Of a stretch of 64,000 bases of DNA, positions 1,335 through 60,520 are shown in pieces (positions within the stretch are counted from its first letter, which is position 1; each line of letters begins with the position of its first letter). The translations under genes and the position numbers were made by a program. The notes below the pieces were generated by a model. It was not told the origin of the DNA, made no database searches, and worked only from the letters and a program-made list of their open reading frames with translations. The stretch is taken from positions 1,462,001 through 1,526,000 of the forward strand of contig NZ_CP136419.1 of NCBI RefSeq assembly GCF_039233145.1, given 5' to 3'. Source of the stretch: Moorella humiferrea. GTDB taxonomy: Bacteria; Bacillota; DSM-521; Neomoorellales; Neomoorellaceae.

Positions 1335-1347
1335 GTAATATATAACG

Positions 1348-1402
1348 TCTAGGCGATGGAGTTCGCCTTTAAATCTGCGTTATCGCAGTGATGACTCCTA
1401 CC
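1348..1402 (+). promoter_or_regulatory. Fluoride riboswitch aptamer (crcB motif)
   Basis: The RNA contains GGCGATGGAGTTCGCC, then a CTGCG-x4-CGCAG helix, then TGATGACTCCTACC. This is the crcB-motif consensus (GGCGATGG-GTTCGCC, a variable stem, and the conserved TGATGACTCCTAC 3' part). It lies upstream of two fluoride channel genes, as expected. Binding of fluoride stabilises the pseudoknot and leaves the downstream terminator unformed, so transcription continues into crcB. Confidence 0.93.
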
Positions 1403-1440
1403 CCGAAGGGTATCTTTATGCCTGAGAGGTAGGATTTTTT
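1395..1440 (+). terminator. Riboswitch-controlled intrinsic terminator
   Basis: TCCTACC at 1396-1402 can pair with GGTAGGA at 1428-1434, which is followed by six Ts. The left arm is also the 3' end of the aptamer, so ligand binding and terminator formation exclude each other: the standard expression platform for an ON switch. Confidence 0.85.
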
Positions 1441-19269: not shown

Positions 19270-21306
19270 TCATACCTTGAAACGTTCCACCTGTTCTTCT
19301 AAGCGTTTGGCTATCCTAAGGACATCCTGGGCGGTGGAGGCTATTTCCTGGGTAGAGGCCGACAGTTCTTCGGCGGAAGCCGATATTTCCTCGGCCGAAG
19401 CAGAAGTTTCCTCCGCCACAGCGCTGATGCTCTGGATGCGGTCGAGCATAACGTCCTTGGCCTGCACTGTGCCGTCGACCTGGCGATAGGTCTCTTCGAT
19501 CATGGGGGCCACGGCGGCTACAGAACTTAAAATGCGGTCAAAGGACGCCACCGTTTTTTCTACATTATCCAGCTGCACCATTATTTGCCCTTTTACTTCC
19601 TCCGAGGTGCTTACAACCTCGTCGGTGCCGGAAGTTATGGTTGCCAAAAGTTCCCCGATTTTATCAGAGGATGCACGGGATTGTTCCGCCAGCTTACGAA
19701 CCTCTTCGGCAACCACCGCAAACCCGCGCCCGGCTTCTCCAGCGCGCGCCGCCTCGATGGCTGCGTTCAAGGCCAAAAGGTTGGTTTGCTCGGCAATGCC
19801 GTTGATCACGGCCAGGATCTCGCTTACCTGATTTACCGCCCCCTGGAGCCCTGTAATTTTATCGGTAACTGTGTTAAAGGCCTCCCGTACGCCCTTAATA
19901 GAATTTATAAGGACGTCCAGCTCCGCCTTGCCCTCCCCGGCCAGCCTGGAGGTTTCTTCGGTGTTGGCCTTGACGCTGCCCACGGCGCTGTATACCTTTT
20001 CAAGGTTGGAATTTATATTTTCCACCAGACCCAATATCTCCTGCAGGTGACCTGCCTGCTCGGACGCTCCGGAGGCCACCTGCTGAACAGCCTTGGCCAC
20101 CTCGCCGGAAGAAGCGGCAATCTCTTCGGCGGCAGCATTCAACCCTTCGGAACTGCCGGCCAGGGTTTTTGCCTCTTCCTTTACCCCGGCCAGGAGGGGT
20201 TTCAGGTTGGTCTGCAGGGTATTAACTGCCACCATGAGCCGGCCGATTTCATCCCGCATCTTTAAAAACCTGTCCGGCACCGTCCGGGTGAAGTCGCCGG
20301 CGGCCAGATGGCCCAGCTCATCCACGGCCAGTTTTATCGGATTTGTTATGGCCCGCGCCATAATAAAGGTCAAAAGGAGGGCCGCCGCAATGATTATCAA
20401 TGATAACGTCATAAGGTACCATTTGAGGCCGGCCGTTCTCTCCAGCACCTCGACTTCGGGGGCGGCGATGGCCAGGGACCACCCGGTGCTGCTGACTGGC
20501 GCAAAGGCGACCATTTTCTTCTGTCCCTGGTAGGTGTATGCCCCTACCCCCTTTTCCCCTTGCGCCATCCTGGCGATGACTTCCGCCAGGGAAGCGAGGG
20601 AGGAATCGCTTTGGCTCGCCTTCAGGATATTTTCTTCTGCGGCAACTTTTTCTTGATCCTTATGACCGATAGTCTTGCCTGTTTTATCTACGGCAAAGGC
20701 ATACCCGCTGCGGCCGTATGTAATATCGCTGATGAGCTGGCTGAACTGGGACGCGTCAACTATACCGATTAATACCCCGATTATTTCATTGGTGGCATAA
20801 TGGCGAATGGGTGTGGTGTAGGCGAAGATGACGGATTTGTCGATTTTACTGACAATGGTGCTGGAAACGAAGGTCTTACCCTCCAGAGCAGCCCGGAAAT
20901 GTTCCCGATCAGCAATGTTGGCCTTGCTGCCGTCGGTATAGAAGGCGTTTCCCTCTTTATCGGCAATGCCGAAACGCCTGAAGCCCATGCCTTCTGTTGC
21001 CTTCAACTCCTGCTGCAGGGCTTTAAGCTTATCTTCCAGGGTGGCTTCCCGTTCGCCGACACGGCCGCGAATTATCTCCATATTGGCCATGGTTTCCACA
21101 ACATACATCCTTGCTTGTACACGGCTGTTCACGGTTGCTGCGGCCTGCTCAATAATCTTTTCCATAGCTTCCCTGGCTGCGGCATCCAGAGTTAAACTCG
21201 CGCGGTTCTGGCTCACCAGGGTCAGCACCAGACAGCCTACCAGCACGATGGCCCCAAAAAAGAGGGTCATTCTAATCCGCAGGCTTCCTGTCGATTTTCC
21301 CTTCAT
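19270..21306 (-). CDS. Methyl-accepting chemotaxis protein with Cache sensor
   Basis: 678-residue transmembrane chemoreceptor (702 if the upstream in-frame start at 21378 is used). TM1 near residues 10-30, an extracytoplasmic dCache-type sensor (about 35-280, with [20 protein letters not shown] and [15 protein letters not shown]), TM2 near 300-320, HAMP, and the signalling hairpin tip [21 protein letters not shown] start at ATG 21306 ([13 protein letters not shown]) because the upstream codons overlap the riboswitch terminator; it lacks a close ribosome site. No che genes are adjacent. Expression is under the c-di-GMP-I riboswitch upstream. Confidence 0.9.
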
Positions 21307-21380
21307 AAGTTTAAAATGGTCGTTCTCCCCCAAGGGCAAAATTGGCTCCCGGGGACGACCTATCCCCCCTTTTACCAAAA

Positions 21381-21411: not shown

Positions 21412-21424
21412 GAACCAGCCTCCG

Positions 21425-21512
21425 GCGGCCCGGCTGCCTTATCCCCTAAAAAAGGGACTTAGGCCCGTAGCTTTGCGCCCCCGCCTTTCGACGGGTTTGC
21501 CTTGAGCGGTAA
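21425..21512 (-). promoter_or_regulatory. Cyclic di-GMP-I (GEMM-I) riboswitch
   Basis: The minus strand reads CAAGGCAAACCCGTCGAAAG, then GCGGGGGCGCAAAGCTACGG, GCCTAAG, a CCCTTTTTTAGGGG hairpin and GGCAGCCGGG. These are the GEMM-I landmarks: the P2 arm with the GAAA tetraloop, the CGCAAAGC-ACGGGCCTAA core, and the GGCAGCCGGG element that forms the P3 side of the ligand pocket. It sits 120-200 nt upstream of the chemoreceptor gene, a classical target. Confidence 0.93.
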
Positions 21513-33336: not shown

Positions 33337-33412
33337 GATTGAGTAGAGGTATGCCTCGAGGCATACCTCTCTCACAGAACCATGCTTGCGCAATAAACGC
33401 ACATGGCTCCTC
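33337..33412 (-). mobile_element. Group IIC intron 3' remnant (domains V-VI)
   Basis: Minus strand: a 33-nt domain V (33377-33409) with GAGCCATGTGCG pairing to CGCAAGCATGGTTC, then the perfect palindrome of domain VI (33345-33370; arms AGAGGTATGCC/GGCATACCTCT) and the end CTACTCAAT. The full intron nearby ends CTACTCGAT, so this is the 3' end of a third, different intron copy. Its 5' part is missing. Confidence 0.65.
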
Positions 33413-33480
33413 AAGGAAACCTTCACGTATGTAGGCCGACGGCAACCAGATATCCATGATATTTACGTATATCCTTGGGC

Positions 33481-34070
33481 TTAAGGATGAGGCGGCTAGC
33501 CCCGTCCTCTCACACCACCGGACATGCGAGTCCGTATCCGGCGGTTCAATAAGCTTTACGAAGACTAAGATAACGTTCGGTTAAGCTCATGAGGACATGG
33601 GATTGCCAGCAGGTATTGCCCAGGGCTCTATTCATTGGCCCGTGGACCATCCGCCATGGCCCTTTGCGGGTATTGGCGTATTCGTGTACTACCCATTCCG
33701 GTAATCCTAAAGCTCGTAGTTCGCGGTACCTGGTCCGTACTCGCTTCCACTGCTTCCAGAGGCACATGAGTAGCCTCCTCCGCATCCAGCCTTCTTAACC
33801 ATCCCCCCGATTTGTAGGACACAGAGTAAAGAGAACGCCCGCCCAATATACTCTATAGTCCCTTGGCAGCCTGGGATTTCGCTGTGTTTCGCCAGCTCAT
33901 CCGGACGTTCCAGCCTCGTATGGGGTTCTTGTTCATCGGGCCGTAGCTTTGCCTCCGGCTTCCTTCGGATCCCACCTCGCGGTGGGCACCCTTGCCTTTG
34001 GCTAGCAGACTCGTGCTGCCTCGCCTGCAGTGGACTTTTACCACCTAGTTAACACCCATGCCGGGAGCAC
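33481..34070 (-). mobile_element. Internally deleted group IIC intron copy
   Basis: Starts at 34070 with GTGCTCCCGGCATGGGTGTT, closely similar to the first 280 nt of the full intron, then jumps to the 3' end of the maturase gene and a domain V (CCGGATACGGACTCGCATGT). Domains II-III and most of the maturase are lost; the 3' end lacks the CTACTC terminus. It follows the full intron with no base between. Non-mobile by itself unless helped. Confidence 0.8.
33546..33785 (-). pseudogene. C-terminal fragment of group II intron maturase
   Basis: 79 codons matching the last part of the intact maturase: MCLWKQWKRVRTRYRELRAL, then LGLPEWVVHEYAN and SLTERYLSLR. Only the end of the maturase domain is left; the reverse transcriptase is missing. 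Confidence 0.85.
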
Positions 34071-35979
34071 ATCGAGTAGGAGGGGGCGGCTAGCCCCCGT
34101 CCTCTCACACCACCGGACATGCGGGTCCGCATCCGGCGGTTCACCAAGCTTGACGAAGACTTTGATAGCGTTCGGTTAAGCTCATCAGGCCCTGGGACTG
34201 CCAGTAGGCATTCCCCAGGGCTCTATTCATTGGCCCGTGGGCCATTCGCCATGGCCCTTTGCGGGCATTGGCGTATTCGTGTACTATACATTCCGGTAAT
34301 CCTAAAGCTCGTAGTTCGCGGTACCTGGTCCGTACTCGCTTCCACTGCTTCCAGAGGCACATGCGCAGCCTCCTCCGCATCCAGCCTTCTATGTTCTTGA
34401 AAGTACTGGGCGTGTCGGCCAGGGCGAAGTATCCTATCCACCCACCCAGGTAGGTGTTCAGGCGTTCTATGCGTTCCGCCATCTTTACGGGTTTATTCCG
34501 GGAGGTTATTTCCCGGATTTTCGTTTTCACCCGGTCGAGGGTCTGCGGTGCCAGGCGGATAAGGATTTGCCCTGCTCTGGCTTTATACATGCTAAACCCC
34601 AGGAATTTCAGTTTCCACGGCCGGTCTACCGCGCTCTTTTCCTTGTTTATCTTGAGCTTCAACCGTTCCTGCAGGAACTTGCGGATACTTGCCATGACCC
34701 TTTCTCCCGCCCGTTTGCTTTTGACGTAAATGTTGCAGTCATCGGCGTAACGGACGAATTTGTGGCCCCTCTTTTCCAGTTCTTTGTCCAGGTCGTCCAG
34801 GAGGATGTTGGCCAGAAGAGGGCTTATTGGTCCGCCCTGGGGCGTCCCTTCCGCCGTCTCTATGACCACCCCGTTCACCATGACGCCTGCCTGGAGATAG
34901 CGGCGGATAAGGGTAAGTACCCTCTTATCCGTTACTCTCCGGGCCACCCGGGCCATGAGTATGTCATGGTTTACCCGGTCAAAGTATTTCTCGATGTCCA
35001 GGTCCACCGCCCATTCGTATCCTTCTTCCACGTATTGTCGCGCCTTCCTTACCGCGTCATGGGCTCTCCTTCCGGGTCGGAACCCGAAGCTTGCCTCTGA
35101 AAATTGCGGTTCGAAGATGGGCGTCAATACTTGCAGAAGGGCCTGCTGGATCAGGCGGTCCATTACGGTGGGTATCCCTAGTAGCCGTTTGCCTCCCCCG
35201 GGTTTCGGGATTTCGACCCGGCGTACGGGCATCGGTCTGTAGGTTCCCGCGAGCAGTTCTTCCCGGATGCGCGGCCATTCGGCGCGAATTTGGTCCCGCA
35301 ACCGTTCGGTCGGGATGCCGTCCACGCCGGGTGCGCCTCCGTTCCGCTCTACCCGCTTTAGGGCGGCCAGCATGTTACTCCTGGCCACCACCTGTTCCAT
35401 CAGGCCGCTACCTTGGCCTTCGCGAGGTGACGTTCCGCTTTGTGCCGGAGAAGAACTCGGCCCTCCCTCGGTCCCCCGTGGCTTCACCACTTCCTCCCGC
35501 GGGCAGGCCCCTTCCGGGGAAATCTCGCGTCTTCGCCCTTCTCGCGAACGCATCGGTTTCACCTCTGACTTGATGTTCGGGCCTTCCCCTGCGGTTCATG
35601 ACCCCCAGGGTACTATGCCCAAAGCTTCCTCCTGCCGGTTCAGCCGTGCCTTTCAGCACGGGTTACCAGCTTCGCTTGGCTTATCCGGCAACACCCACCT
35701 TCGGTGGGTCCCCGCCCGGGTAAGAACGTTAACCTTCACCCCGCGCCCGCCCCATATACTCTACCGCCCTTATGTCTGCCTTGGATTTCGCTGTGTTTCG
35801 CCAGCTCATCCGGACGGTCTAGCCTCGTATGGGTTTCTTGTTCATCGGGCCGTGGCTTTGCCTCCGGCTTCCTTCGGATCCCACCTCGCGATGGGCACCC
35901 TTGCCTTTGGCTAGCAGACTGGTGCTGCCTCGCCTGCAGTGGACTTTCACCACCAAGTTAACGCCCATGCCGGGCGCAC
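34071..35979 (-). mobile_element. Full-length group IIC intron with maturase
   Basis: A 1909-nt retroelement. The 5' end GTGCGCCCGGCATGGGCG with the downstream GAAGGAAGCCGGAGGCAAA segment resembles the Oceanobacillus iheyensis IIC intron domain I. Domain V is at about 34106-34143 (CCGGATGCGGACCCGCATGT), domain VI follows, and the 3' end is CTACTCGAT at 34071. It sits directly after the T5 tract of the pdxT terminator, the target choice of IIC introns. All parts needed for splicing and mobility appear present. Confidence 0.9.
34141..35562 (-). CDS. ltrA: Group II intron reverse transcriptase/maturase
   Basis: 473-residue intron-encoded protein. RT blocks are complete: GAPGVDGIP, the PQGGPISPLLANILLDDLD block and the catalytic YADDCNIYV. 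The X/maturase domain follows (GWIGYFALADTPSTFKNIEG, RELRALGLPE). There is no HNH endonuclease domain, typical of class C. The stop codon lies at the edge of domain V. The product helps splicing and retrohoming of its host intron and may act on the deleted copy next to it. Confidence 0.93.
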   Translation of the reverse strand: MKPMRSREGRRREISPEGACPREEVVKPRGTEGGPSSSPAQSGTSPREGQGSGLMEQVVARSNMLAALKRVERNGGAPGVDGIPTERLRDQIRAEWPRIREELLAGTYRPMPVRRVEIPKPGGGKRLLGIPTVMDRLIQQALLQVLTPIFEPQFSEASFGFRPGRRAHDAVRKARQYVEEGYEWAVDLDIEKYFDRVNHDILMARVARRVTDKRVLTLIRRYLQAGVMVNGVVIETAEGTPQGGPISPLLANILLDDLDKELEKRGHKFVRYADDCNIYVKSKRAGERVMASIRKFLQERLKLKINKEKSAVDRPWKLKFLGFSMYKARAGQILIRLAPQTLDRVKTKIREITSRNKPVKMAERIERLNTYLGGWIGYFALADTPSTFKNIEGWMRRRLRMCLWKQWKRVRTRYRELRALGLPECIVHEYANARKGPWRMAHGPMNRALGNAYWQSQGLMSLTERYQSLRQAW

Positions 35980-55489: not shown

Positions 55490-56299
55490 TTACTGAACTT
55501 CATTGTGGGCAGCAGCAACTACCCTTTGAATCAAGGCCGGCCACTCTTCCTGTGGCAGGCCGACACCCTTCATACCCATCCAGAGGAGGAATTCCAGATT
55601 GCCTTCCGGGCCGCTTATTGGCGACCAGGTTAAGCCGTATATCTTTAGGCCCAATCCTGCGAGGGCACTTATTACCTCTTGTAAAACCTCACGGTGCACG
55701 GCGGGATCGCGCACCACCCCTTTCTTGCCCACCCGGTCGGGACCAGCCTCAAACTGGGGCTTGACCAGGGCAATAACTTCTCCCTCCGGTTTTAAGCACC
55801 CCAGAACGGCGGGCATGACCTTCACGAGGGAGATAAAGGAAACGTCGATGGTGGCGACGTCGACCGGTTCCCCCAGCTTATCCCGATCCAGGTAACGGGC
55901 ATTGGTCCTTTCCAGAACTACTACCCGCGGGTCACTGCGCAATGACCAGGCTAGTTGACCGTATCCCACGTCTACCGCATAAACCTTTGAGGCACCATGT
56001 TTTAAAGCGCAATCGGTAAAGCCCCCAGTAGAGGCGCCTACGTCTAAAACTACTTTTTGCCTCAAATCTATATTAAAATCCCGGAGTGCTTTTTCCAGCT
56101 TTAAACCGCCGCGGCTCACATAGGGTAAAGGCCTGCCCGTCAGGCGTATTTCCGCTTCCAACGGAACCTTCGCCCCCGGTTTGTCCATAGGAACGTCATT
56201 TACCAGCACTTCGCCGGCCATTATCGCCGCCTGGGCCTGCTGACGGCTGGGGAAAAGCCCTTTACTCACCAGCAGAACGTCTAATCTTTGTTTAACCAC
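55490..56299 (-). CDS. tlyA: TlyA family rRNA 2'-O-methyltransferase
   Basis: 269-residue protein with an N-terminal S4 RNA-binding domain ([20 protein letters not shown]) and FtsJ-like methyltransferase ([27 protein letters not shown]). GTG 56299 has GGGAG 7 bases upstream and overlaps dxs by 8 bp. The family methylates rRNA and is known as YqxC in Bacillus. Confidence 0.92.
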
Positions 56300-58214
56300 C
56301 GGAGATCTCCCTGGCGCTAAGTTTACGCGCAACAGTTTTCTTTCGTCCCGCCAGCGCTTCTTGAACGGATGCGGCGATGCCCGCGGGTGTCAAACCTAAG
56401 TGTTCCCGCAAAACGTCCGCCTTACCATGTCCAACAAATTTGTCGTCAATGCCCAAGCAGTGCACCCTGACGCCCGTTTTGCCCATGGCTGCCAGGAGTT
56501 CTAATACGGCACTGCCGAAACCGCCCGCCAGGACGTGTTCTTCCACCGTTACCAGGCAGCCGGTTTTATCGGCCCAGGTAAGAATTAAATCAGCATCCAG
56601 GGGTTTGACAAAACGTGGATTGATGACCGCCGCCTCTATACCCCGGCCGGCCAGTTCTTCCGCGGCCGCCAGAGCGGCATAAACCAGGGGGCCGAGGGCC
56701 AGGATGGCAACGTCTTTCCCCTGGCGCAAAACTTCACCCTTACCGATGGGGAGGGGTTGGGCGGGACCGGTCAGGGGAACGCCGATCCCTTCACCCCGCG
56801 GATATCGCAGGGCCGCCGGACCGTTATACTGGATGGCCGTGGCCAGCATATGCCGCAGTTCCTGCTCGTCCTTGGGAGCCATGACTACCATGCCCGGAAC
56901 ACAGCGCAGAAGGGCCAGATCGAAAAGGCCCTGGTGGGTTTCGCCGTCTTCACCAACCACGCCGGCGCGATCGATGGCCAGAACGACCGGCAGTCCCATT
57001 AAAGCAATGTCGTGGATTACCTGATCCACGGCCCGCTGTAAAAAGGTAGAATAAATGGCGACTACGGGTTTAAAACCTGCAGCTGAAAGGCCAGCGGCCA
57101 GGGTCAAAGCGTGCTGTTCGGCAATACCCACGTCAAAAAAACGTTTGGGGAAACGCCGGGCGAAGGGCATAAGGCCCGTACCTTCGGGCATGGCCGCCGT
57201 AATGGCCACCAGTTGGCTGTTTTTTTCTCCCTGGCGTACCATTTCGGCGCCGAATACGGAAGTATAGGTTGGGGGTCCTTCTTTCTTTAAAGGCTCACCC
57301 GTTTCCGGGTCAAAGGGGCCGATGCCGTGGAAGCGACCGGGATTGACTTCCGCCGGACGGTAACCTTTACCTTTGGTGGTAATCACGTGGACCAGTACCG
57401 GTCCCCGGGTAGCCCGGGCGCGCTGCAGCACTTCCTTTAGCAGGGCGACGTTATGCCCGTCAATGGGTCCTAAATACGTAAAACCCAGCTCTTCAAATAG
57501 CATTCCCGGAACGACCAGGTACTTAAAACTGTCTTTAAGGCGCTCAATGACCTTCAAAACCCGCGGGCCAACGTGGGGAAGGCGGTTCAAAAGGTTTTCC
57601 AGCTCTTCTTTACTCCTGGAGTACATGGGGTCTGTGCGCATGCGGGAAAGATAGGCCGCCATGCCACCAACAGGAGCAGAAATGGACATTTCGTTGTCAT
57701 TGAGAATGACTATCAAGTTGGTCTTCAAGTGACCGGCATGATTCATGGCTTCAAAGGCCATGCCGCCGGTCAGTGCTCCGTCACCGATGACTGCGACTAC
57801 CTGGTAGTCATCACCCTTTAAATCCCTGGCCAAGGCAAAGCCCAGGGCGGCAGATATGGAGGTGCTGCTGTGTCCTGTATCGAAGGCATCATAAAGGCTT
57901 TCGGCGCGTTTGGGAAAACCGCTCAACCCGCCATATTGGCGCAGGGTGGCAAAACGGGAAAGACGGCCCGTGAGGATTTTGTGTACGTAACACTGGTGGC
58001 CGACATCCCAGATAATTTTATCCCTGGGCAGGTCGAAGACGCTGTGCAGGGCCAAAGTAAGTTCAACCACGCCGAGGTTAGGAGCCAGATGGCCGCCGGT
58101 GCGCGCCACCGTCCGGACGAGTTCCCTGCGAATTTCTGCGGCCAGCTTCTCAAGTTCCGTATTATTTAATTTTTTTACGTCGGCCGGCTCCCTTATTTTA
58201 TCCAGCAGGTTCAT
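56292..58214 (-). CDS. dxs: 1-deoxy-D-xylulose-5-phosphate synthase
   Basis: 640-residue thiamine-dependent first enzyme of the MEP isoprenoid pathway. TPP motif [18 protein letters not shown] ... [10 protein letters not shown], transketolase domain with [20 protein letters not shown] and the C-terminal domain. ATG 58214 starts right after the oapA stop. Its pathway links to ispA upstream. Confidence 0.96.
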
Positions 58215-58802
58215 TCATGGCCGCCGTCCTTTCTGGGATGGATAATTAAAGGGGTACCATCCGGTAACCCTTTCCAGGGCATATAATAAACGGCCTACAA
58301 AAAAAATTATATCATTGGCCTGCCGCAGGGCAAATCCTTTGCCCAGGGCTTTTCCCCCAACGGTTACGGCCGAAACGGCGGCCGTCATGAGGGTGCTGAC
58401 CAGCATGTCTTCGGCGCCATGCCGCCCTACCAGGCGGATAATAATTACCGCCCCGACGGCACCGCTTAAAGTGCTGCACACATCGCCCACCACGTCGGTG
58501 GCAAAACTGGTCACCCTTTCGGCATTGCGCAGCAGCCCTAAGGCCTGGCGGGCTCCGGGTATCTTTCTGGCCGCCCGGGCGTTTAAAGGCGCCTCGCTTG
58601 CTGCAGCCGTGGCCACGCCGATAATATCAAAAACTATGCCGGCCAGGATGATTATTAAGAGCAGGAAAAAAGACAAAACAATGGAGGTTATGCTCCCCAA
58701 AAAGGCCTGGGAGCCATACCCCACGGCCAGGGCTATAAAAAAAGTCCCCCCGCCCATAGTCAGGGCATTTCGCCAGGAGGAACGTCCTAGGTTTCTGGCC
58801 AA
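58215..58802 (-). CDS. oapA: OapA, OLE RNA-associated membrane protein
   Basis: 195-residue membrane protein with about four helices (FLGSITSIVLSFFLLLIIIL, IVFDIIGVATAAASEAPLNA, GAVGAVIIIRLVG) and a DUF21/CNNM-like pattern. Its place between the OLE RNA and dxs is that of OapA, which binds OLE RNA at the membrane. The start is TTG 58802, GGAGG 13 bases upstream. Assigned by context, topology and RNA neighbour. Confidence 0.85.
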   Translation of the reverse strand: MARNLGRSSWRNALTMGGGTFFIALAVGYGSQAFLGSITSIVLSFFLLLIIILAGIVFDIIGVATAAASEAPLNARAARKIPGARQALGLLRNAERVTSFATDVVGDVCSTLSGAVGAVIIIRLVGRHGAEDMLVSTLMTAAVSAVTVGGKALGKGFALRQANDIIFFVGRLLYALERVTGWYPFNYPSQKGRRP

Positions 58803-58829
58803 ACTTATTTTCTGCCTCCATGTTGAAAT

Positions 58830-59460
58830 ATTATGTATTCCCCGGTGGGTGGCAGCCGCTCGGGTAAACGTTATGGCTTAGGTCCAGTAGGTTTTCCCGA
58901 TACCCTACCACGCGTCGCCGCCGTGGCGGTTTCCCTTTAAAGGGTATCCTGCGCCGTCGCCGGTGGCAGGACTGGATTACCACTTAGCGCATACTTTAAT
59001 CCCCGACCGGCCTTACCGGACGGTAAACAGTCTAGGAGTTTTCCTCGGCAGAACCAGCCATCTTCTAGCCTCTTTTGCAGTAGGGGTTTCCGCTTGAGCC
59101 GGAAATCTTCGGCGAAGACCCCGGCGGGCGTTTGCCACCCGCATCCACCACTACCGCTCAAGGCAGGCTACGCTGCAGCCAGCACCCTCCGTACCGACTG
59201 CAGGTTTCTACCCCAGGCCATAGTATTCATTCCTGCCGGAGGAACTTTCCCACGCACCTGGGTCTCCACGGAGGGAGGGTCCACGCCTACATGCCATTGT
59301 AGATCGCCCCCCCTCCTTAACTCCCAGTACCAACCCCCGACTGGGCGTCGGCAGCCAGCACCAGGAACTTCATCGGTGTGCCCTTGACGGATTTTTAGGC
59401 CCGTCTTCAAAGATGGTGGTTCTGACTAGAATACTGCGCCACCCACCTTATGGGCTAAAC
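58830..59460 (-). ncRNA. ole: OLE RNA (ornate large extremophilic RNA)
   Basis: A 600-nt-plus gap without coding potential, rich in G+C and helices. The ends pair: GGTGGGTGGC (59438-59447) with GCCACCCACC (58844-58853), 10 perfect bp, enclosing about 600 nt. The 3' end reads CCACCCACCGGGGAATACAT. Size, position between ispA and the oapA-dxs genes, and the terminal helix agree with OLE RNA, a large structured RNA of extremophile and anaerobic Firmicutes that forms a membrane ribonucleoprotein with OapA. Exact ends are estimated. Confidence 0.88.
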
Positions 59461-59485
59461 AAAAATTCTGTCCTTGGTAGAATGT

Positions 59486-59514
59486 ATTATAAGTTATTTG
59501 CCCCAAAACGGCAA
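59486..59514 (-). promoter_or_regulatory. Promoter of OLE RNA
   Basis: Minus-strand TTGCCG (59509-59514) and a perfect TATAAT (59486-59491) with a 17-bp spacer; start predicted near 59478, some 30 nt ahead of the terminal helix. It lets the RNA be made independently of the isoprenoid operon upstream. Confidence 0.7.
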
Positions 59515-59626: not shown

Positions 59627-60520
59627 CTATCCTTGACGATTTAAAACATAACCGGCAAGGTAAATTAAGGGTTCTGCCTTCGTTCCTAGGCTCCTCGCCA
59701 ATTCCTGGGCTTCTTTACAAAGTTGGCCGGCAATCTCTTTTGCCTGTGCCAATCCTAAACAGGCAGGATATGTTGCTTTACCTCTGGCCATATCCACGCC
59801 GCCTTTCTTACCCATATTGGCAAAATCGCCTTCTATGTCCAGGATGTCGTCTGTTATCTGAAAGGCAAGGCCCAGATTTTCGCCGTAGCGGGTTAAAGTG
59901 TCTAATTGCTCTTCATCGGCGCCCCCCAGAATGCCGCCCATGCGCAGGCAGGCGCGGATAAGGCTGCCGGTCTTATGGGTATGGATGTAATTTACCGTCT
60001 CCAGAGTAACCTGCCGCCCTTCGGCCTCCATGTCCACCACCTGGCCGCCGATCATCCCCTGGCTGCCGGCGGCGCAGGCCAGCTCGCCAATGGCCTGAAG
60101 GACCTTCTCCGTCGGGACGCCTTCCGGTACCTGGCTTAATACGGCAAAGGCATGGGTGAGCAGGGCATCGCCGGCCAGCAGGGCCACTGCCTCGCCAAAC
60201 ACTTTGTGGCAGGTAGGCCTCCCGCGGCGAAAATCATCATTATCCATGGCCGGCAGGTCATCGTGAATAAGGGAATAGGTATGAATTAACTCTACGGCGC
60301 AAGCTGCCGGCAACAGAGGCTCCGGCGGGCTACCCACAGCTTCACCTGCCGCTAGGACCAGAAGGGGCCTCAATCTTTTACCGCCGGCAAAAAGGCTGTA
60401 ATGCATGGCCTGATGCACTGCCGGTGGATAACTCTCCGGCGGCGGCAGGCAGCTTTCAAGGGCTTTCTGAATTAACTCCCGGCGGGAAGCCAGATAGCTT
60501 TTAATTTCCGTTACCTTCAC
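59627..60520 (-). CDS. ispA: Polyprenyl (farnesyl) diphosphate synthase
   Basis: 297-residue all-helical prenyltransferase. First aspartate motif LIHDDLPAMDNDDFRRGRP, second FQITDDILDIEGD; KRLRPLLVLA at the start. Overlaps xseB by 20 bp. Confidence 0.95.
   Translation of the reverse strand: MKVTEIKSYLASRRELIQKALESCLPPPESYPPAVHQAMHYSLFAGGKRLRPLLVLAAGEAVGSPPEPLLPAACAVELIHTYSLIHDDLPAMDNDDFRRGRPTCHKVFGEAVALLAGDALLTHAFAVLSQVPEGVPTEKVLQAIGELACAAGSQGMIGGQVVDMEAEGRQVTLETVNYIHTHKTGSLIRACLRMGGILGGADEEQLDTLTRYGENLGLAFQITDDILDIEGDFANMGKKGGVDMARGKATYPACLGLAQAKEIAGQLCKEAQELARSLGTKAEPLIYLAGYVLNRQG

Follow-up and report, generated by a model that had tools for sequence, protein, structure and literature searches.

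The ole locus lies in the window, the 64,000-nucleotide stretch of Moorella humiferrea DNA analysed here, in a neighbourhood of folD, xseA, xseB, ispA, ole, oapA, dxs, tlyA, nadK, argR and recN (Table 1). A large structured RNA in the noncoding gap of an isoprenoid operon, namely OLE, had been predicted from the DNA letters, and the Rfam covariance model RF01071 (OLE), the check proposed beforehand, matched the minus strand from 59458 to 58833 with 505.9 bits (E 1.9e-145) against a gathering score of 50. The match covers positions 1-616 of the 616 in the model, i.e. the full length. The identification rests on this score, and the locus holds a true representative of a known and well-studied RNA class in the isoprenoid-gene setting that the original prediction described. 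The predicted range of 58215-59514 does contain OLE but also takes in oapA, the RNA proper occupying about 59478-58833. Similarly, OLE borders ispA (which ends at 59627) as predicted, whereas its other flank is oapA, with dxs directly after oapA. One OLE copy is present in the 2.67 Mb genome, and OLE was found in 77 of 101 relatives, in 284 of 398 genomes of the phylum and in none of 14 control genomes.

Elsewhere in the window, a c-di-GMP-I-GGC riboswitch aptamer (21420-21510, minus strand, 71.7 bits) is located just upstream of a methyl-accepting chemotaxis protein gene (19270-21378, minus strand), and a fluoride riboswitch (1343-1407, plus strand) upstream of tandem crcB-like genes, of which the first (1473-1892) matches TIGR00494 and the second (1905-2291) was assigned by reading only. 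A group II intron (33338-35895, minus strand) carries a reverse transcriptase/maturase (34141-35562); a second set of intron domains (33338-33986) has no reverse transcriptase of its own and is possibly a partial second copy.

Table 1 Features of the ole-oapA locus, with positions in the window
Feature	Positions	Strand	Basis
dxs, beginning directly after the oapA stop	56292-58214	-	TIGR00204, 859 bits
oapA, CNNM/DUF21 membrane protein, 195 aa, TTG start, GGAGG 12 nt upstream	58215-58802	-	Pfam CNNM
OLE RNA (RF01071), full length	58833-59458	-	Rfam covariance model
P1, 3' strand, GCCACCCACC	58844-58853	-	Complementarity; pair covaries in relatives
P2, 3' strand, CUAGACUG	59028-59035	-	Complementarity
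P3, 3' strand, GAAGAUGGCUGGUUCU	59050-59065	-	Predicted pairing and covariation
P9 apex, UUCGCCGAA, carrying GCCG, complementary to CGGC of L7	59108-59116	-	Sequence reading
P7 apical hairpin, UUCCU-CCGGC-AGGAA, loop with CGGC	59230-59244	-	Local fold
L6 loop, CAAUGGCAUG	59290-59299	-	Motif in 108/113 relatives
L5 loop, GACGCCCAGUC	59339-59349	-	Motif read in the window
L4 A-rich loop, CCUAAAAAUCC	59389-59399	-	CUAAAAA motif in 106/113 relatives
P3, 5' strand, AGAACCACCAUCUUU (proposed membrane-spanning helix)	59409-59423	-	Predicted pairing with 59050-59065
P2, 5' strand, CAGUAUUCUAG, partner 59028-59035	59426-59436	-	Complementarity
P1, 5' strand, GGTGGGTGGC (RNA GGUGGGUGGC)	59438-59447	-	Perfect complement of 58844-58853
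ole promoter: TTGCCG (59514-59509), 17-nt spacer, TATAAT (59491-59486)	59486-59514	-	Consensus scan
ispA-type farnesyl diphosphate synthase gene, upstream of ole	59627-60520	-	NF045485, 380 bits

Promoter of ole

The TATAAT element 17 bp from TTGCCG, noted in the original prediction, was recovered by the consensus scan and proved to be conserved in the genus Moorella. TATAAT is invariant in nine of nine aligned Moorella loci, within a gap that is otherwise drifting or diverged, and the -35 element starts with TTGC in all nine. Scanning up to 75 nt upstream at 111 loci gave a promoter-like score of at least 10 in 53%, compared with 2.6% of shuffles. From the sequence, transcription of ole is predicted to start near 59479. 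A search for an intrinsic terminator between OLE and oapA returned none that was convincing.

Covariation of helices P1 and P3 and the contact loops

In the Rfam structure of OLE the first 53 positions are unpaired and both P1 and P3 are absent, while published models place P1, P2 and P3 in this 5' region (PMC12265935). The 10-bp pairing ends predicted for the RNA are exact and correspond to helix P1, which covaries in relatives. Counted outward, each of P1 pairs 2-4 takes a standard form in 56-58 of the 63 distinct sequences (shuffle maximum 43), and P1 strands taken from the same genome pair with a mean of -21.8 kcal/mol, against -13.7 kcal/mol when strands are swapped between genomes (87 loci). 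P2 is nearly invariant in sequence, and its predicted pairing was read from complementarity.

P3 is predicted to form 15 bp with one bulge in the window. Same-genome P3 strands average -15.9 kcal/mol versus -6.8 kcal/mol for strands swapped between genomes (113 OLE loci), and for P3 pairs 5 and 6 a standard pair is found in 98 and 95, respectively, of the 104 distinct sequences, with shuffle maxima of 57 and 58. Taken over the 63-104 distinct sequences, most P1 and P3 pairs exceed all 500 shuffles. The 5' strand of P3 is 14-15 nt long in 111 of 113 loci, with its sequence free to covary, while lengths elsewhere range from 25 to 88 nt for P9 and from 31 to 74 nt for the P7 region. This constraint of fixed length and free sequence is one of two testable ones from the comparison; it agrees with the proposed membrane-spanning role of P3 (PMC12265935) but would equally follow from any fixed tertiary geometry.

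The dimer-contact motifs L4 and L5/L6 and the J4a/5 k-turn motif are intact in the window; in the published structures, L4 forms dimer contact B1 and L5 touches the L6 of the partner. A full Shine-Dalgarno sequence, AAGGAGG, is present in the P6 region (59312-59318, minus strand) opposite CCCUCCCUCC. P6 of Halalkalibacterium halodurans OLE contains the anti-Shine-Dalgarno mimic CCUCCU, which has been linked to bS21 binding (PMC12054373).

OapA and the partner proteins

The gene following ole had been predicted to encode a DUF21-like membrane protein in the OapA position, and both parts of this assignment hold. Its product scores 33.4 bits with Pfam CNNM (cut-off 28.4), a profile also matched by 46 of 65 OapA-like relatives, and shares 33-83% identity with the ORFs located after OLE in the sampled relatives; an OapA-like ORF lies downstream of OLE in 100 of 113 loci. 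A sequence-profile search of solved structures found no relative, but a fold search with the AlphaFold2 model (mean pLDDT 85) did, giving a probability above 0.9 solely for the CNNM/CorC structures 7m1t, 7m1u, 7cff and 7cfg, with Foldseek E-values of 5e-3 or worse. Position, profile, fold and identity to the relatives' proteins thus identify the gene as oapA. D59, D103, D107 and K151 are invariant, and the conserved basic cluster of K80, R92, K151 and K155 is basic in more than 90% of relatives. OapA shares the CNNM transmembrane fold (7m1t, 7cff) with the CNNM/CorC and MpfA magnesium transporters. These transporters also have cytoplasmic domains, whereas OapA is a 195-aa membrane domain alone. 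No CNNM-family gene other than oapA was found in the genome, in line with a published report that OLE and the MpfA transporter are anticorrelated (PMC11332333).

Genes for the other known partners are present as well. The OapB gene is located between map and infA and matches the OLE-associated protein B structure 7k9b (E 1.2e-6), and a bS21 gene was found. The genome encodes two L7Ae paralogues, one of them between rpoC and rpsL, an interval which we take, from the gene order of B. subtilis, to be the YbxF/OapC position. By its L7Ae family and gene position, this protein is a putative OapC-like protein. ArgR, encoded in the neighbourhood of ole, has been named as a candidate OLE partner from unpublished work (PMC12265935).

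An alternative is that OLE is no more than a leader of the isoprenoid operon mRNA, or an intergenic piece processed from it, and functionless in this lineage. OLE does lie within the operon, no convincing terminator precedes oapA and dxs abuts the oapA stop codon; however, ole has its own conserved promoter, some 600 nt, in which P1 and P3 covary and the loops are nearly invariant, are maintained across the phylum and the partner genes are present in the genome, making such a leader very unlikely. That the stretch encodes a conserved small protein instead of an RNA can be practically discounted, since its overlapping ORFs of 74 to 97 codons stand against a full covariance match with covarying helices, and the open sense-strand frames vary among species and do not exceed 88 codons in nine Moorella genomes, which gives no support to a conserved ORF inside OLE.

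Loss of the L9 palindrome in Moorella

In the published dimers, two L9 loops pair via a palindrome such as GGCC, GAUC or AGCU (PMC12286853). The window L9 contains no 4-nt palindrome, and the same loss was observed in eight congeners, of which seven have the CGCCG apex in common and the eighth has UAGCCAA. As this published dimer contact is absent, the dimer may differ in Moorella. The P7 loop contains CGGC in nine of nine Moorella loci, and the P7 region measures 55-56 nt in the genus versus a median of 47 nt in other lineages. The P9 apical hairpins of several loci were read by eye.

Published OLE variants 1 and 2 also vary in the P7-P9 region (PMC11332333), but they shorten or lose P7, P8 and P9, whereas the P7 region (56 nt) and P9 (76 nt) of the window are full length and differ in loop sequence only; the window OLE was therefore not assigned to either variant. 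A compensating palindrome in L7 was likewise rejected, as the CCGG found in the window's L7 is absent from most congeners, and loss of the palindrome is not a trait of the whole family, given that genome G011 (locus L079) retains GGCC. A palindromic L9 is not required for the OLE class, P9 being shortened in published variant 1 (PMC11332333) and in sister genera. In these sister genera of the window's family (L066, L068, L071 and L081), P9 is much shortened, to 34-58 nt, with the rest of OLE kept. The P9 arm of Moorella, e.g. in L015 and L020, has an extra small hairpin (GGGUG/CACC, AGGC/GCCU, AGGCC/GGCCU), which the Rfam structure lacks and whose stem seems to covary among the loci of the genus.

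Complementarity of L7 and L9

In a first comparison, L7 tended to be complementary to L9 in those few full-length OLEs whose L9 is not palindromic, the match extending over 7 nt in L013 (UGGCUCC/GGAGCCA), 5-6 nt in L027 and 4 nt in Moorella. The relatives of genome G043, a class-level clade of 24 genomes in seven families, served as the test clade. All 24 full-length OLEs of this clade have a UUGGUC-like L7 and a GACC-like L9, and L7 (UUGGUCG) is complementary to L9 (CGACCAA), with a match of 4-7 nt and compensatory changes. At least five exact nucleotides match in 83% of the clade, compared with 7-9% in letter-shuffled and swapped controls. All 24 form the four core pairs (GG-N-C). At the central position 21 have U-A, L191 has C-G, L196 A-U and L206 U-G, including two double changes. 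Permutation over all seven pairs gave 163 of 20,000 arrangements as good or better when standard pairs were counted and 567 of 20,000 with Watson-Crick pairs only.

Among OLEs from neither this clade nor the window's family, complementarity between L7 and L9 stays at the chance level (7.7% versus 5.8%), in a count that includes the clade member L100 as well as L013. A strong palindrome is present in the P9 apical region of 141 of 142 such OLEs, L013 being the exception, by a permissive criterion, as a random stretch of this length often holds such a tetramer. Among 28 further OLEs, the 26 with a full-length P9 are all palindromic there, and none has an L7-L9 match longer than 5 nt.

We consider it likely that OLEs with a non-palindromic L9 close the dimer, or the monomer, via L7-L9 pairing, a proposal that adds to the identity of the RNA and does not compete with it. 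The frequent complementarity, the complete set of core pairs and the double changes in the G043 clade all argue for such docking, as do the independent 7-nt match in L013, which is also the lone palindrome-less OLE of the 142, the 6-nt match in L027 and the published finding that the loops of P4-P8 and P9 all face the dimer interface (PMC12191101). On the other hand, covariation support in the clade is moderate (163 of 20,000 for standard pairs), the palindrome count depends on the permissive criterion, L019 has neither contact and the hypothesis was formed partly on the sequences that support it. The 6-nt match of L027 has a 28% chance of arising by itself because both loops are G+C rich, and the 4-nt match of Moorella has a chance of 10-12% by letter shuffling, with one of the nine species keeping 3 nt. 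The L7-L9 contact is thus well supported by sequence comparison in the G043 clade and plausible in L013, while in Moorella it is suggestive, given the chance level of a 4-nt match and the fact that nine species represent one lineage.

Discussion

The window OLE shares with that of H. halodurans (PMC9723947, PMC12054373, PMC11332333) a full-length RNA, an adjoining oapA, its own promoter, the OapA, OapB, OapC and bS21 genes and clustering with genes of fundamental processes. It differs in its Moorella-type host and in a P9 without the palindrome of the structural papers. In H. halodurans, OLE forms a membrane-located particle with OapA, OapB, OapC and bS21, and the cells depend on it during ethanol, cold, magnesium and carbon stress (PMC9723947, PMC12054373, PMC11332333, PMC12265935). 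To the RNA identity, the P1 and P3 covariation, the conserved promoter, the OapA fold and the OapB, OapC-like and bS21 genes obtained here, this homology adds a membrane location, protein binding and a stress role, which we infer for the window OLE from the H. halodurans work.

In the proposed mechanism, a sigma-70-type promoter of its own, located in the xseAB-ispA-ole-oapA-dxs-tlyA-nadK-argR-recN cluster, would drive transcription of OLE, which would fold into domain 2 (P1, P2 and P10-P15) and domain 1 (P4-P9), with P3 as the connecting helix. The RNA would bind the CNNM-like membrane protein OapA together with OapB and OapC, and the resulting ribonucleoprotein at the membrane may help the cell to withstand ethanol, cold, excess magnesium and poor carbon sources. 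In Moorella, L9 without its palindrome may dock on L7 instead. With high confidence, this part of the window can be read as the ole-oapA locus of a Moorella-type acetogen, its RNA having an own promoter, a two-domain fold and a probable place in an OapA/OapB/OapC-bound membrane particle for stress. No result spoke against the OLE identity. Few structured bacterial RNAs are as large as OLE, which has been proposed to cross the membrane, and to its known copies the locus adds a clean one from an acetogen genus.

The dimers of Clostridium acetobutylicum (9MCW) and C. botulinum (9LCR) (PMC12286853, PMC12265935) have L4, L5/L6, the J4a/5 k-turn and P3 in common with the window OLE. Unlike these dimers, the window OLE cannot make a 4-nt L9-L9 kissing loop (bridge B3), and the P7 loop of Moorella is complementary to L9. 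One published account excludes both P7 and P8 as dimerisation contacts (PMC12265935), and L7 has been placed near the dimer interface (PMC12286853, PMC12191101). The main texts of the OLE papers surveyed, one of the two structure papers among them, make no mention of an L7-L9 contact, and a prior description is possible. The addition seems unreported and provides a comparative lead on the dimer interface.

On balance, we favour two interchangeable dockings for the tip of P9, L9-L9 or the heterotypic L7-L9, the latter having been adopted in several lineages after loss of the palindrome, including one class and probably Moorella. If this is true, L7-L9 pairing between monomers would re-wire the dimer, while pairing within one monomer would make the L9-L9 bridge dispensable. 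The P9 dimer contact appears to be replaceable by L7-L9, which would tell the essential part of the dimer from the rest and can be tested by compensatory mutation.
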